In this document: one piece after another, positions 18,871 to 26,966 of the stretch
Position numbering within the stretch: position 1 is the first letter of the stretch
Layout of the letters: each line of letters starts with the position of its first letter
DNA from: an uncultured Oscillospiraceae bacterium
GTDB lineage: Bacteria; Bacillota; Clostridia; Oscillospirales; Oscillospiraceae
DNA: 64,000 nt
Direction: 5' to 3'
NCBI GenBank assembly: GCA_905234625.1
Contig: CAJOIC010000002.1
Span: 1 to 64,000 of the forward strand
Program-made: the position numbers and the translations under genes
The notes under the pieces: generated by a model
Databases searched by the model: none
What the model saw: the letters and a program-made list of their open reading frames with translations, nothing else
Told to the model about the DNA's origin: nothing

Positions 18871-18927
18871 GTTACTAATGTAATTTGCACGGGTGTGCCG
18901 TTGAATAATACACGGGAGGCAAATAGT

Positions 18928-20064
<1,137 letters not shown>

Positions 20065-21576: not shown

Positions 21577-23607
21577 TCATTCGGCCTCGGCCAGAGCCTT
21601 GGCTTCCTCGATGATCTTCTGCTGGACGTTCGCGGGGGTCTCGTCGTAGCGGATGAACTCCAGGGTGAAGGAACCGCGGCCCTGGGTCATACTGCGCAGA
21701 TCGATGGCGTAGGTGGTCATCTCCGCCATGGGGACCTCGGCCTCCACGACCTGCATGCCGTCGTGGGCGTTCATGCCCAGCATGGTGCCGCGGCGCTTGG
21801 AGGGGATGTCGCTCATGATGTCGCCGAGGTTTGCGTCGGGGATGGTGACCTTCAGCAGGCCGATGGGCTCCATAATGACGGGGTTGGCGTTCACCAGCTC
21901 CTTATAGGCGAGACCGGCGGCGGTCTTGAATGCCATTTCGGAGGAGTCCACGGGGTGGAAGTCGCCGTCGTACAGGACGGCCTTCAGGTACACCATGGGA
22001 TAACCGGCGAGGACGCCCTTCTGGCAGTTTTCGCGCAGGCCCTTTTCCACGGCGGGGAAGAAGTTCTTGGGAACGGAGCCGCCGAAGACCTCCTCGGCGA
22101 AGATCATGTCCTCCTGCTCGGACTGGGGCTCGAAGCGGATCTTGACGTCCGCGAACTGGCCATGACCGCCGGTCTGCTTCTTGTGGCGGCCGTGGGTCTC
22201 CAGAGTCTTGCGGATCTTCTCGCGGTAAGCCACGCGGGCGGGGGAGAGCTCCACCTCCACGCCGAACTTGCTCTTGAGCTTGGAGCAGAGGACGTCGATG
22301 TGCATATCGCCGGCGCCGGCCACCACCTGCTGATGGGTCTCGGCGTTCAGGGTGACGGAGAAGGTGGGATCCTCCTCGTTCAGGCGGGAGAGGCCCTGGG
22401 CGACCTTGTCGTCCTGGCCCTTCACCTTGGGGGAGATGGCCATCTGATAGCAGGGGACATCGAACTCGATGCCGGGCAGGGCCTCAACGGCGCCGGGAGC
22501 GCAGAGAGTGTCGCCGGTCTTGGTATCGGTGAGTTTGGACACCGCGCCGAAATCGCCGCAGCCGATCTCGGGGACTTCGGTGTTCTTCTTGCCCTGCATG
22601 GTGTAGATGTGGCCGAGCTTTTCCTGAGCGCCGGAGCGGGCGTTCGTCAGGGTCAGATCGCCGGTCACCTTGCCGGAGACGACCTTGAACAGGGAGAACT
22701 TGCCGAACTGGTCGGAGACGGTCTTGTAGATGATGACCTTCGCCGGACCGTTGGGATCCAGGGCCTTGCCGCCCTCAGAGGGCTCGGGGAAGATGGAGAC
22801 GGCGGCGTCCAGCAGGATGCGGGTGCCGAGGCCGGTGAAGGCGCTGCCGGCGTAAACGGGGCAGATGCTGCCGTCGGCGACGCCTGCGCTCAGGGCGCCG
22901 GAGATCTCCTCGGGGGAGAGCTCCATGGTCTCGAAGTACTTCTCCATCAGCTCCTCGCTGGTCTCGGCGGCGGACTCGGCAAGCTCGGTGTAGAGCTCCT
23001 CGAGACGGTCGCTCATGGAGTCTGGCATGGGGATGTCCACGCGCTTGTTGCCCTCCATCTTGAAGGCCTTCTTCGTGATGACGTCCACGATGCCGACGTA
23101 CTTGTCGCCATCCTTGATGGGGGCGGTCATGGCACAGACGGAGTTGCCGAAGGCGGCGCGCAGACCGTCGAAGGTCTTGTCGAAGTCGGCGTGCTCCTCA
23201 TCGAGCTTGGAGATGTAGATGGCGCGGGGCTTTCCGGCCTCCTTGAGGAGCTTCCAGCTCTTTTCGGCGCCGACGTTCAGACCGTCCTTCGCGGAGACGC
23301 AGATGATGCCCAGGTCGGCGACGCGGAGGGCCTGCTTCACCTCGCCGGCGAAGTCGAAGAATCCCGGCGTGTCGATGATGTTTATTTTATAGCCCTGCCA
23401 GTTGGCATACATGGTGGCGGCGGAGATGCTGATTTGACGGCGGATCTCCTCCGCGTCGAAGTCGGAGACGGTGTTGCCGTCCACGACCTTGCCCATGCGG
23501 TCGGTCATACCGGCGATGGACAGGATGTTCTCAGCCAGCGTGGTCTTGCCGTTGCCGCCGTGACCGAGCAGAGCGATGTTGCGGATCTTCTTCAGTTCAG
23601 TGCTCAT
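21577..23607 (-). CDS. Elongation factor G-like translation GTPase (divergent, EF-G-II/FusA2 type)
   Basis: P-loop GHGGNGKTTL, switch II DTPGFFDFAGE, SKLD; all EF-G domains present. Confidence 0.88.
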   Translation of the reverse strand: MSTELKKIRNIALLGHGGNGKTTLAENILSIAGMTDRMGKVVDGNTVSDFDAEEIRRQISISAATMYANWQGYKINIIDTPGFFDFAGEVKQALRVADLGIICVSAKDGLNVGAEKSWKLLKEAGKPRAIYISKLDEEHADFDKTFDGLRAAFGNSVCAMTAPIKDGDKYVGIVDVITKKAFKMEGNKRVDIPMPDSMSDRLEELYTELAESAAETSEELMEKYFETMELSPEEISGALSAGVADGSICPVYAGSAFTGLGTRILLDAAVSIFPEPSEGGKALDPNGPAKVIIYKTVSDQFGKFSLFKVVSGKVTGDLTLTNARSGAQEKLGHIYTMQGKKNTEVPEIGCGDFGAVSKLTDTKTGDTLCAPGAVEALPGIEFDVPCYQMAISPKVKGQDDKVAQGLSRLNEEDPTFSVTLNAETHQQVVAGAGDMHIDVLCSKLKSKFGVEVELSPARVAYREKIRKTLETHGRHKKQTGGHGQFADVKIRFEPQSEQEDMIFAEEVFGGSVPKNFFPAVEKGLRENCQKGVLAGYPMVYLKAVLYDGDFHPVDSSEMAFKTAAGLAYKELVNANPVIMEPIGLLKVTIPDANLGDIMSDIPSKRRGTMLGMNAHDGMQVVEAEVPMAEMTTYAIDLRSMTQGRGSFTLEFIRYDETPANVQQKIIEEAKALAEAE

Positions 23608-23752
23608 GAGGTTTTCTCCTTCTATAATGATTCGTAAACGTAAATACAGGGGATCGGGCGCGCAAAGCACACCACATTAAAATATTATACACGATTGCTG
23701 AATGATTAGCAATAGCATATCCGTGAGAAATCGAGGGTCCCGGCCTGAATTT

Positions 23753-26093
23753 TTACCGGCTCTGTCCCAGGGAGAGGATGAGCGCCGGGAGGAACCACAG
23801 GGCCATAAAGGAGAGGACGTTGCCCGCGGAGGCGGTGTCGAAGGCTCCCACGCGGCAGAGAAGGAACATGATGACCATGCCGATGCCCGCGCCTGCCAGG
23901 GACAGGATCGCGGAGATGCGGCTGGCGTTGTATGCTTTGCGGGCGGCCTCGGCGGCCTCCACGAGAGGAAGCATCCCCGGACGGGAGATCACGGCGTCGA
24001 TGGGGGTATCTCCGCCCTCGGCGGCTTCTTCCCGAAGACGGTAGCGCTCACGGAAGGAGGGGAAGTTGAACCGGTCCGTGGGCATGCGGAAGAGCTTTCC
24101 GATCATGCGCGGGGTGATATTGAAGTCCCGGATGGCGAAGACAGTCTGGGTCTTTCCCCTCATGAGAGTGACGAGTGCCTCCTGTACGGAGGTCACGGGT
24201 ATGTAATCGATGACGAAAACGCCCACAAGCTCGCCGGAAATGGCGGTGCAGATGGAGTTTCGGGTCTGCAGGTTCTGGGGCAGGCGGATGCCCATGAGAT
24301 TCATAAAGCCCGCGGAGCCTACCAGGACCCTCTCTCCGCTGATCAGGCCGGACAGACCGCCGCCCTCATGGACGGCGAATTCTTCCACGCCGGGCATGTT
24401 GTAGCCCCGCCGTGAGACCAGCTCGTCAAACAGGGCGGAGACGCCGCTGCCGGAGGCGGAGAGAAGCCCTGCTGTGGAGGCGACGACCTTCCCCAGAAAG
24501 ACGCCCTCGGCCACGTTGATCTCAGAGAATTTCATGGTGCCGGGGGGAAATAGGTCCTCGTCCGTGATGACGACCCGGTTGGTCTTGCCTATGTCGGCAC
24601 AGCCGTCGTACCCGGCGAGTGCGGCGCCGGAGCTGCGAAGGCGGCGGGCGGCGATGGCATAGGGCAGGGGGAAGCCCACGAAGGCCGCGAAGGAGGCGCT
24701 GACGGATACCAGCGCGGAGAAGGTGTGCAGGAAATACGCGCCGTTTCCGATACAGGCTATGACGGAAAGCAGCAGCGATGCTCCCAGGAGAAACGGCGCC
24801 GCCGCAGCGTAAGCCGTGCGGCAGATGTCCTGGGATTCGCTCCGGCGCACGATGCCCTCAGTGCTGTCCCGTTCCGTGCGCAGAAGAGCCTGATCCGCGC
24901 CGGAGGACAGGACGGAAGGCGTCTTGGAGGCCGCGGCGGTGCGGAAGGTGCGGCGCAAGGCCTTGCAGGTGAGTTGTTCGCCCCAGAGCGCCGCCGTGAG
25001 GGAGGCCGCGCCGATGGCGCAGAAGGGCAGCGTGTCCACCAGCTCGAACAGGACGAGAACGGCGTCGATGCCGGATAGGATCGCGGCGATAGAGGCCAGG
25101 GCCTCCGCGCCGGGCTTTAAGTCAAAGAGCTGCCGCAGTCCGGCGGTGACCACATCCAGCGCCGTCATCATGACGGCCAGGAGCAGGACAAGGCTGACAC
25201 CGGCCTGCAGGGGGATGCTCCTGCCGAGCATGCCCGCCATGGGCAGCCGCAGGCTGATCCAGGCGAGGATGACGGTGAGGAGCAGGGCTACCCGCAGCCG
25301 CATGGACAGGGGACGCAGCAGAGAGCCGTAATACTTGGCGGCCTTGCCCGGGGTCAGCTCCGGGGTCTCCCGGATGTCCAAAGGCTCGGGCCAGTTGGCG
25401 GCCTCCGCCGTCTGCATCTGGCGGCGAGCGATGCGGGTCGCCACCATGCGTACCGCCGGGGCGAGGAAGCGCTCGGTAAAGGACTGGCGGGGCGGTTCCT
25501 GCGTCTGAACGGGACGCTGGGTGCGTTCCGGACGGGGCTTTTTCACAGGGATCTCCGGCTCCTTCTGAGGGGCCTCCTCTGCGGCATTGTCCTTATATCG
25601 CAGGGTGATGATCCCATCCTCGCCGATGACCACCCGGGGCCGCTGCTCCCGGGAGTCGTTTTCCGTCTCGTCAGGGGGAGCGGAGGGGGCCTGCGGGGAC
25701 GCATCCTGCGCGATGGCGTCCTCTTCGGCGGGAGCACCCTCCCGCACAGGCGCAGACGGCGCTGCCTCGGGCTGCGGGGCTTCTTCCCGGTGGGCCTGGG
25801 CCTCCTGCTGATAGTGGCGCAGCGTCTCGCCCAGGGTGCTCATGGCAGCGCGGCGGGACCGCTCGGCGATAGAGGCGGCGTCCCCGGCGGGGGGGTCCAC
25901 GGCCTTCGGCCTCCGCCGCGGCAGGACGCACCTGGGGCGCCGGAGCGTTGGTCTTTTCCTCGGTCGGGGGAGCGGGGTTACCCGCCGCCGCGGCGCGGTT
26001 GGCCGCGGTTTTTCGCGCGTACTCCTGCAGGAGAGCGGCTACGGAGTATTCGTCGTACTCCGGAGTTATGTCCCGGATCTGTCTCTCACTCAT
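23753..26093 (-). pseudogene. P-type ATPase-like membrane protein with degenerate catalytic motifs; ORF split by a frameshift at a G7 tract
   Basis: N-terminal part in frame of 26093 (MSERQIRDITPEYDEYSVAALLQEYARKTA), remainder in frame of 25900; removing one G at 25889-25895 fuses them; P1B-like layout with DKTGT replaced by DEDLFPPGT. Whether it is truly non-functional is unknown. Confidence 0.6.
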
Positions 26094-26829
26094 GGCGCTG
26101 ACGTACGATCTCGTACAGGAGGATGGCGGCGGCGACGGAGGCGTTCAGGGAGTTTACTCTGCCGGCCATGGGAATGGAAAGGATGAAGTCGCAGTTTTCC
26201 CGCACGAGACGGCTGATGCCGCGGCCCTCCGAGCCGATGACGAGGCAGATGGGGCCTCTCATATCCGTCTTCCAGAGCGGCGCGTCTCCGTCGGCCTCCG
26301 CGCCGTAGACCCAGAGACCTTCCTTCTTGAGGTCCTGGAGGGCGGCGGTGAGGTTTGCCACTCTGGCGACGAGCATATGCTCAGCAGCGCCTGCGCTGGC
26401 TTTGTCCGCGGCGGCGGTGATCCCCGCGCTGTGGTGCCGGGGGATGATGACTCCATGGGCTCCGGCGCATTCCGCGCAGCGGATGACGGCCCCCAGGTTC
26501 CGGGGATCCTCCAGCCCGTCGCACACCACGATGAAGGGGTCCTCGTTCCGTTCCCTGGCGAGGGCCAGGATATCCTCCGGGGCGCAGTACTCCTTGGCGG
26601 CGGCTACGGCGATGACGCCCTGGTGCGCGCCGTTCGTGACGCTCATGGCGTCGAGCTTGCGCCGGTCGCATTCCGTGACGGTGATCCCGGCGTTTCTGGC
26701 GTTGGACGCAATGAAGCCGAGGGCCTTGTCGCTGGTCCCCCTGGCCAGGAAGATCTTGTCCAGCGGCCGCCCCGCGCGGATAGCCTCTATGACGGCGTTC
26801 TTTCCCTCTATGATGTTTTCATCTGACAT
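26086..26829 (-). CDS. rlmB: 23S rRNA (guanosine-2'-O-)-methyltransferase RlmB (TrmH family)
   Basis: IIEGKNAVIEAIRAGRPLDKIFLARG; DGLEDPRNLGAVIRCAECAGAHGVI; IGSEGRGISRLV; SIPMAGRVNSLNASVAAAILLYE. Confidence 0.95.
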   Translation of the reverse strand: MSDENIIEGKNAVIEAIRAGRPLDKIFLARGTSDKALGFIASNARNAGITVTECDRRKLDAMSVTNGAHQGVIAVAAAKEYCAPEDILALARERNEDPFIVVCDGLEDPRNLGAVIRCAECAGAHGVIIPRHHSAGITAAADKASAGAAEHMLVARVANLTAALQDLKKEGLWVYGAEADGDAPLWKTDMRGPICLVIGSEGRGISRLVRENCDFILSIPMAGRVNSLNASVAAAILLYEIVRQRHE

Positions 26830-26966
26830 ATTCATACGCAATATACTATATCACAAAGCCAAAGGATTGGAAAGCCTGAACAGGGAAAAATATATGGACT
26901 TTATTACCGAAAAAGGGTATGATTAACTTGTTGAGTGATATCGGATCGCATAAGAGGTGAATTGTT

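Follow-up and report, generated by a model that had tools for sequence, protein, structure and literature searches.

P-type ATPases are textbook ion pumps, and a gene that has kept their architecture without their catalytic machinery raises the question of what its product does. Such a gene lies on the minus strand of the window, the 64,000-nucleotide stretch of contig DNA from an uncultured Oscillospiraceae bacterium analysed here, and runs from an ATG at position 26093 to a stop at 23753. A sequence-only reading had described its product as a P1B-like protein lacking every catalytic motif on an otherwise intact scaffold, with a regulatory or structural role rather than random decay behind it. 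Here we examine the descent of this protein, the extent of its losses, its conservation and a short N-terminal motif that it has in common with other membrane proteins.

A gene in two frames downstream of rlmB

The window copy of the pseudo-P-type ATPase gene is divided between two reading frames. The main open frame (23753–25900, minus strand; 715 amino acids from a GTG at 25900) encodes the end of a linker, eight predicted membrane helices, a P-domain remnant and an N-domain. The N-terminal part with the start of the linker lies in another frame (25671–26093, minus strand), whose true coding portion stops near a run of seven G residues at 25889–25895. Close to this run, after the N-terminal motif and ahead of the protein body, the reading frame changes. 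Of the extent of 23753–26093 originally given for the gene, the 23753–25900 frame contains all the strings quoted, and the upper limit of 26093 marks the ATG with which the N-terminal part opens in the other frame. Two relatives (L001 and L004) carry the N-terminus continuous with the body in a single frame. As these are intact across the site, the frame change of the window copy is an assembly error or a strain-specific frame shift.

Upstream, the end of rlmB (26086–26841, minus strand), a conserved neighbour encoding a SpoU/TrmH-type 23S rRNA 2'-O-methyltransferase, overlaps the start of the pseudo-ATPase gene by 8 bases in the window. Downstream lies a gene for an EF-G-like GTPase (21577–23670, minus strand), a frequent neighbour across the loci.

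Descent from a P1B pump

The window protein matches none of the models in Pfam or NCBIfam, and Pfam has no model that fits the family as a whole, DUF6594 being touched weakly by 3 of 79 members. A phmmer search with the single sequence returned the N domain of Archaeoglobus fulgidus CopB (E = 1.6e-5). With a profile of 79 homologues the top match was LpCopA (PDB 3rfu, E = 2.7e-33), and further P1B pumps for copper, cadmium and zinc came next. Profile-profile comparison by hhalign with three true P-type ATPases extended over 495 columns (probability 99.6, E = 6.7e-24). This is further supported by structure. The AlphaFold2 model of the core (mean pLDDT 94.8, pTM 0.90) has as its best Foldseek match in the PDB LpCopA (E = 1.8e-18), again followed by other P1B pumps. 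TM-scores against full-length P1B pumps are moderate (0.43–0.55, query-normalised), as expected for a protein that lacks the actuator domain and whose domains are free to move.

The model and a hydropathy scan agree on eight membrane helices with leading MA and MB, the P1B pattern. The first block, equivalent to MA, MB, M1 and M2 (residues ~201–306), is encoded at 24983–25300, the M3–M4 equivalents (residues ~365–418) at 24647–24808 and the C-terminal pair equivalent to M5–M6 (residues ~659–714) at 23759–23926, all on the minus strand. Profiles, model and Foldseek together demonstrate the common membrane, P and N domain fold of the P-type ATPase superfamily, and the profile and structure searches rule out a chance resemblance. 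The P1B layout first read from the sequence is therefore confirmed, with the predicted fold at high confidence. The pseudo-ATPase descends from a P1B pump, the copper type being nearest by profile.

With the P1B-1 copper ATPase LpCopA (PDB 3rfu/4bbj) the protein has in common the membrane, P and N fold, the eight helices and the N-domain GxG region. Unlike LpCopA it has no DKTGT, TGES, CPC, HP or GDGxND, deletions have removed a block of its P domain and the greater part of its actuator domain, and its cytosolic N-terminus is a long linker bearing a short motif; no metal-binding domain is seen.

Loss and retention of the catalytic motifs

The motif census covers 94 homologues, aligned together with true pumps. 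Neither DKTG, the motif of the phosphorylated aspartate, nor the GDGxND hinge occurs in any of the 94, and the acidic residues of the hinge are gone in all. The columns of the actuator TGES loop are gapped throughout (94/94), and the histidine of the N-domain HP dipeptide is found in 0/94. The CPC cysteines persist in 7 and 3 of the 94 homologues and the motif III lysine (PxxK column) in 3. The losses of DKTGT, of the CPC site and of the hinge claimed for the single window protein thus hold for the homologues as well, no aligned relative retaining DKTGT. Beyond these positions, the actuator domain is for the most part deleted, as is a later P-domain block between TGDN and the last helices, so the description of the scaffold as otherwise intact does not stand.

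Two positions argue against a loss of every motif. At the TGDN place the window protein reads RDFN (residues 591–594, 24119–24130, minus strand); the replacement had been noted before, but the aspartate of TGD is in fact kept (D592; 92 of 94 homologues). The N-domain GxGV place reads GGGL (residues 513–516, 24353–24364, minus strand), and the second glycine of GxG is present in 93/94.

In place of DKTGT stands DEDLFPPGTM (residues 447–456, 24533–24562, minus strand), in which the family motif is D-x-D-[LIV]-F-P. The replacement was recognised correctly in the sequence-only reading; its register was off by one, since T446, a variable position one before D447, is where MAFFT places the phosphorylated aspartate, as does the HMMER alignment to LpCopA. 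With the nucleophile placed one residue earlier by the aligners, D447 as a retained catalytic aspartate is unsupported and a minor rival at most. Based on the motif losses, formation of a phosphoenzyme is inferred to be impossible, and the pump function is almost certainly lost.

The conserved residues could nevertheless reflect some other chemistry. D-x-D is motif I of the HAD phosphatases, and its two aspartates are kept in 79 and 81 of the 94 homologues alongside D592, as one would expect if the protein were a changed but working enzyme that hydrolyses a phosphate ester or couples some chemistry to its membrane part. Of the HAD phosphatase motif set, however, D-x-D is widely kept and the later motifs are missing: nearly all homologues have lost the motif III lysine, and none has the acidic residues of GDGxND. 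Several divergent families also lack the first aspartate of D-x-D, and the nucleophile column itself falls on the variable T446. We therefore regard such an enzyme as unlikely.

A similar judgement applies to the membrane part. All eight P1B helices are kept and some membrane positions are invariant, which would fit an ATP-independent, passive channel or facilitator for an ion or small molecule. Against this, the CPC of M4 has been replaced by Ser/Ala/Pro/Phe, and no conserved charged or sulfur ligands are seen there; we consider a channel improbable.

Conservation, synteny and selection

Among the genomes of the Oscillospiraceae a match is present in 189 of 201, and in 127 of the 129 of good quality, with no internal stops among the matches listed. 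Across the order the profile has a match in 243 of 249 genomes, the weakest of which may be true P-type ATPases. Length and gene order show the loci from divergent families to be orthologues. Of the genomes sampled across the class, the 139 outside the order give a best E-value of ~1e-35, from proteins that look like ordinary copper pumps; the six in-order genomes of the same sample give 1e-108 to 1e-202. A contig scan, separate from these counts, returned one close relative (L001). In the tree all 16 sampled members form one clade with support 100/100.

In 91 of 101 loci, among them those of the most divergent families, rlmB is the immediate upstream neighbour of the gene; some of the 101 are duplicate entries of one gene. 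Of the ten remaining loci, nine are limited by short flanks or by contig ends, which leaves L066 as the only true exception observed. This arrangement bears on the idea that the protein serves a true P-type ATPase as a heteromeric pseudo-subunit, whether as a subunit proper or as an inhibitor. True P1B pumps are encoded in the same genome, and pseudoenzymes often regulate active relatives. The gene is, however, linked to rlmB, and often to the EF-G gene, rather than to a pump gene, and most P1B pumps are not known to require a subunit of this kind, which leaves the pseudo-subunit a doubtful explanation.

The ratio dN/dS (Nei-Gojobori) ranges from 0.03 to 0.33 over the 13 pairs with finite dS, and the clade is under strong purifying selection. 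Identical losses across homologues combined with purifying selection characterise it as a family of pseudoenzymes. A pump gene in decay that persists by chance would fit the frame change in the window copy, but the open frames, a dN/dS well below 1, the fixed synteny and the identical losses throughout the order refute it for the family, and for this gene we hold it to be extremely improbable. Order-wide conservation, rlmB synteny and the dN/dS values together exclude random decay, in agreement with the original view of the gene.

A conserved motif at the N-terminus

The N-termini of the family differ greatly in length and are unalignable apart from a single conserved motif close to the beginning, [FYL]-S-[LVI]-[ED]-[DESA]-I-L-x-E-[FY], for example FSLEDILAEF, with I, V or A in the last place in some distant families. 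The presence of this motif on the cytosolic N-terminus of the pseudo-ATPase and in LspA and other membrane proteins is new in this analysis. The window protein carries a weak variant, YSVAALLQEY (26019–26048, minus strand), which the frame change separates from the body.

The motif precedes a long linker predicted to be disordered and on the cytosolic side. In the AlphaFold2 model of a full-length homologue it forms a short low-confidence helix (pLDDT ~59) within the disordered linker, which fits binding to another molecule. Docking of the motif onto the protein's own core is unsupported in view of the low confidence of this helix in the full-length model.

Several members among L005 to L031 have a second conserved stretch after the motif, like RSREIVMEALGETI. 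The FtsZ encoded in the window (18895–20064, plus strand) reads FDSIFKIF at its C-terminal end, a loose likeness to the motif that is too weak to interpret; SepF genes were located as well.

Other carriers of the motif

With a strict DNA pattern the motif was found in the bacterium's own genome at the C-terminal end of the lipoprotein signal peptidase LspA, after a long low-complexity tail, and LspA of genomes from the same genus likewise carries it at the C-terminus. The LspA gene of the own genome (L108, G000:C36, 685–1539) encodes a long low-complexity C-terminal tail ending FSLDDILSEFGDE. A looser 10-residue pattern gave 65 matches in 61 Oscillospiraceae genomes compared to 5 for the reversed control. 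Sorted by coordinates and by reading the loci, 39 of these are pseudo-ATPases and 14 are LspA C-termini, with one more LspA from a contig end that is repeated. Another 2 belong to degenerate P-type ATPases, and 9 look like chance. Tagged LspA thus occurs in only 14 of the 61 sampled genomes; the protein is otherwise an unrelated enzyme, which in some genera ends in the motif-bearing tail and has the tag alone in common with the pseudo-ATPase.

The two degenerate P-type ATPases carry the motif at opposite ends. One (L203, 538–2589, minus strand) has it at the N-terminus and reads FNKTGT without a GDGxND, and the other (L204, 2429–4960, minus strand) has it at the C-terminus and reads FGKTGV and GTGTGD. 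In the tree, whose branches are long in that region, both group in a CadA-like clade and outside the family of the window protein. A second degenerate P-type ATPase of the own genome (L065, G000:C3, ~124000), also CadA-like (FDQHSAL, LSEET, GDAAKDA), is without the docking motif and adjoins a gene reading like a class II fructose-bisphosphate aldolase. These three proteins resemble the window's family in their broken catalytic motifs, and L203 and L204 also in the short terminal motif, but they represent another P1B clade that is less reduced and that Pfam still recognises.

Across the order a variant pattern returned mostly pseudo-ATPases, together with single cases of an LCP protein (L234, N-terminal motif), an ABC-2 type permease (L245, N-terminal) and a single-pass membrane protein (L235, C-terminal). 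The 30 LCP loci surveyed from the order contain no motif; the one LCP case is therefore not a rule, and the motif is not general to LCP proteins or envelope enzymes. In LspA, LCP and ABC-2 carriers the motif presumably lies on the cytosolic side according to their usual topology, and it probably does so in the remaining carriers.

Discussion

What may such a protein do in the cell? For a changed enzyme, a channel and a pump subunit, the points given above are all the positive evidence there is. The evidence points best to a conserved pseudo-P-type ATPase. Its most likely role, to which we give about even odds, is that of a scaffold or regulator in the membrane, without catalysis, whose N-terminal motif would dock on a cytosolic partner that other proteins share. 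Held in the membrane by its eight helices, it would not pump. The FSLEDILAEF motif would dock on a candidate cytosolic hub, and this same hub would also bind the cytosolic ends of LspA, of other degenerate P-type ATPases and of a few more membrane proteins. The core could then, as a scaffold or regulator without catalysis, bring partners together at the membrane or sense them there. Alternatively, the tag could serve to sort the protein or to control its turnover. The shared motif supports the regulatory or structural role originally suggested for the gene, short of proving it. A scaffold or regulator of this type would resemble the iRhoms, catalytically dead descendants of membrane enzymes retained for regulation, which have a different fold.

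A literature search covering few subscription journals returned no description of a pseudo-, degenerate or inactive P-type ATPase family of bacteria or of the Oscillospirales. Within the literature searched, this clade, near-universal in its order and without catalytic machinery, would be the first described bacterial family of pseudo-P-type ATPases, and since its genes are absent from Pfam they will likely be overlooked or misnamed as pumps. More tentatively, the order might possess an undescribed docking system in which FSLEDILAEF marks its carriers for one hub and the pseudo-pump is the central membrane scaffold. The shared motif turns the question of function into a direct experiment, namely what binds FSLEDILAEF.
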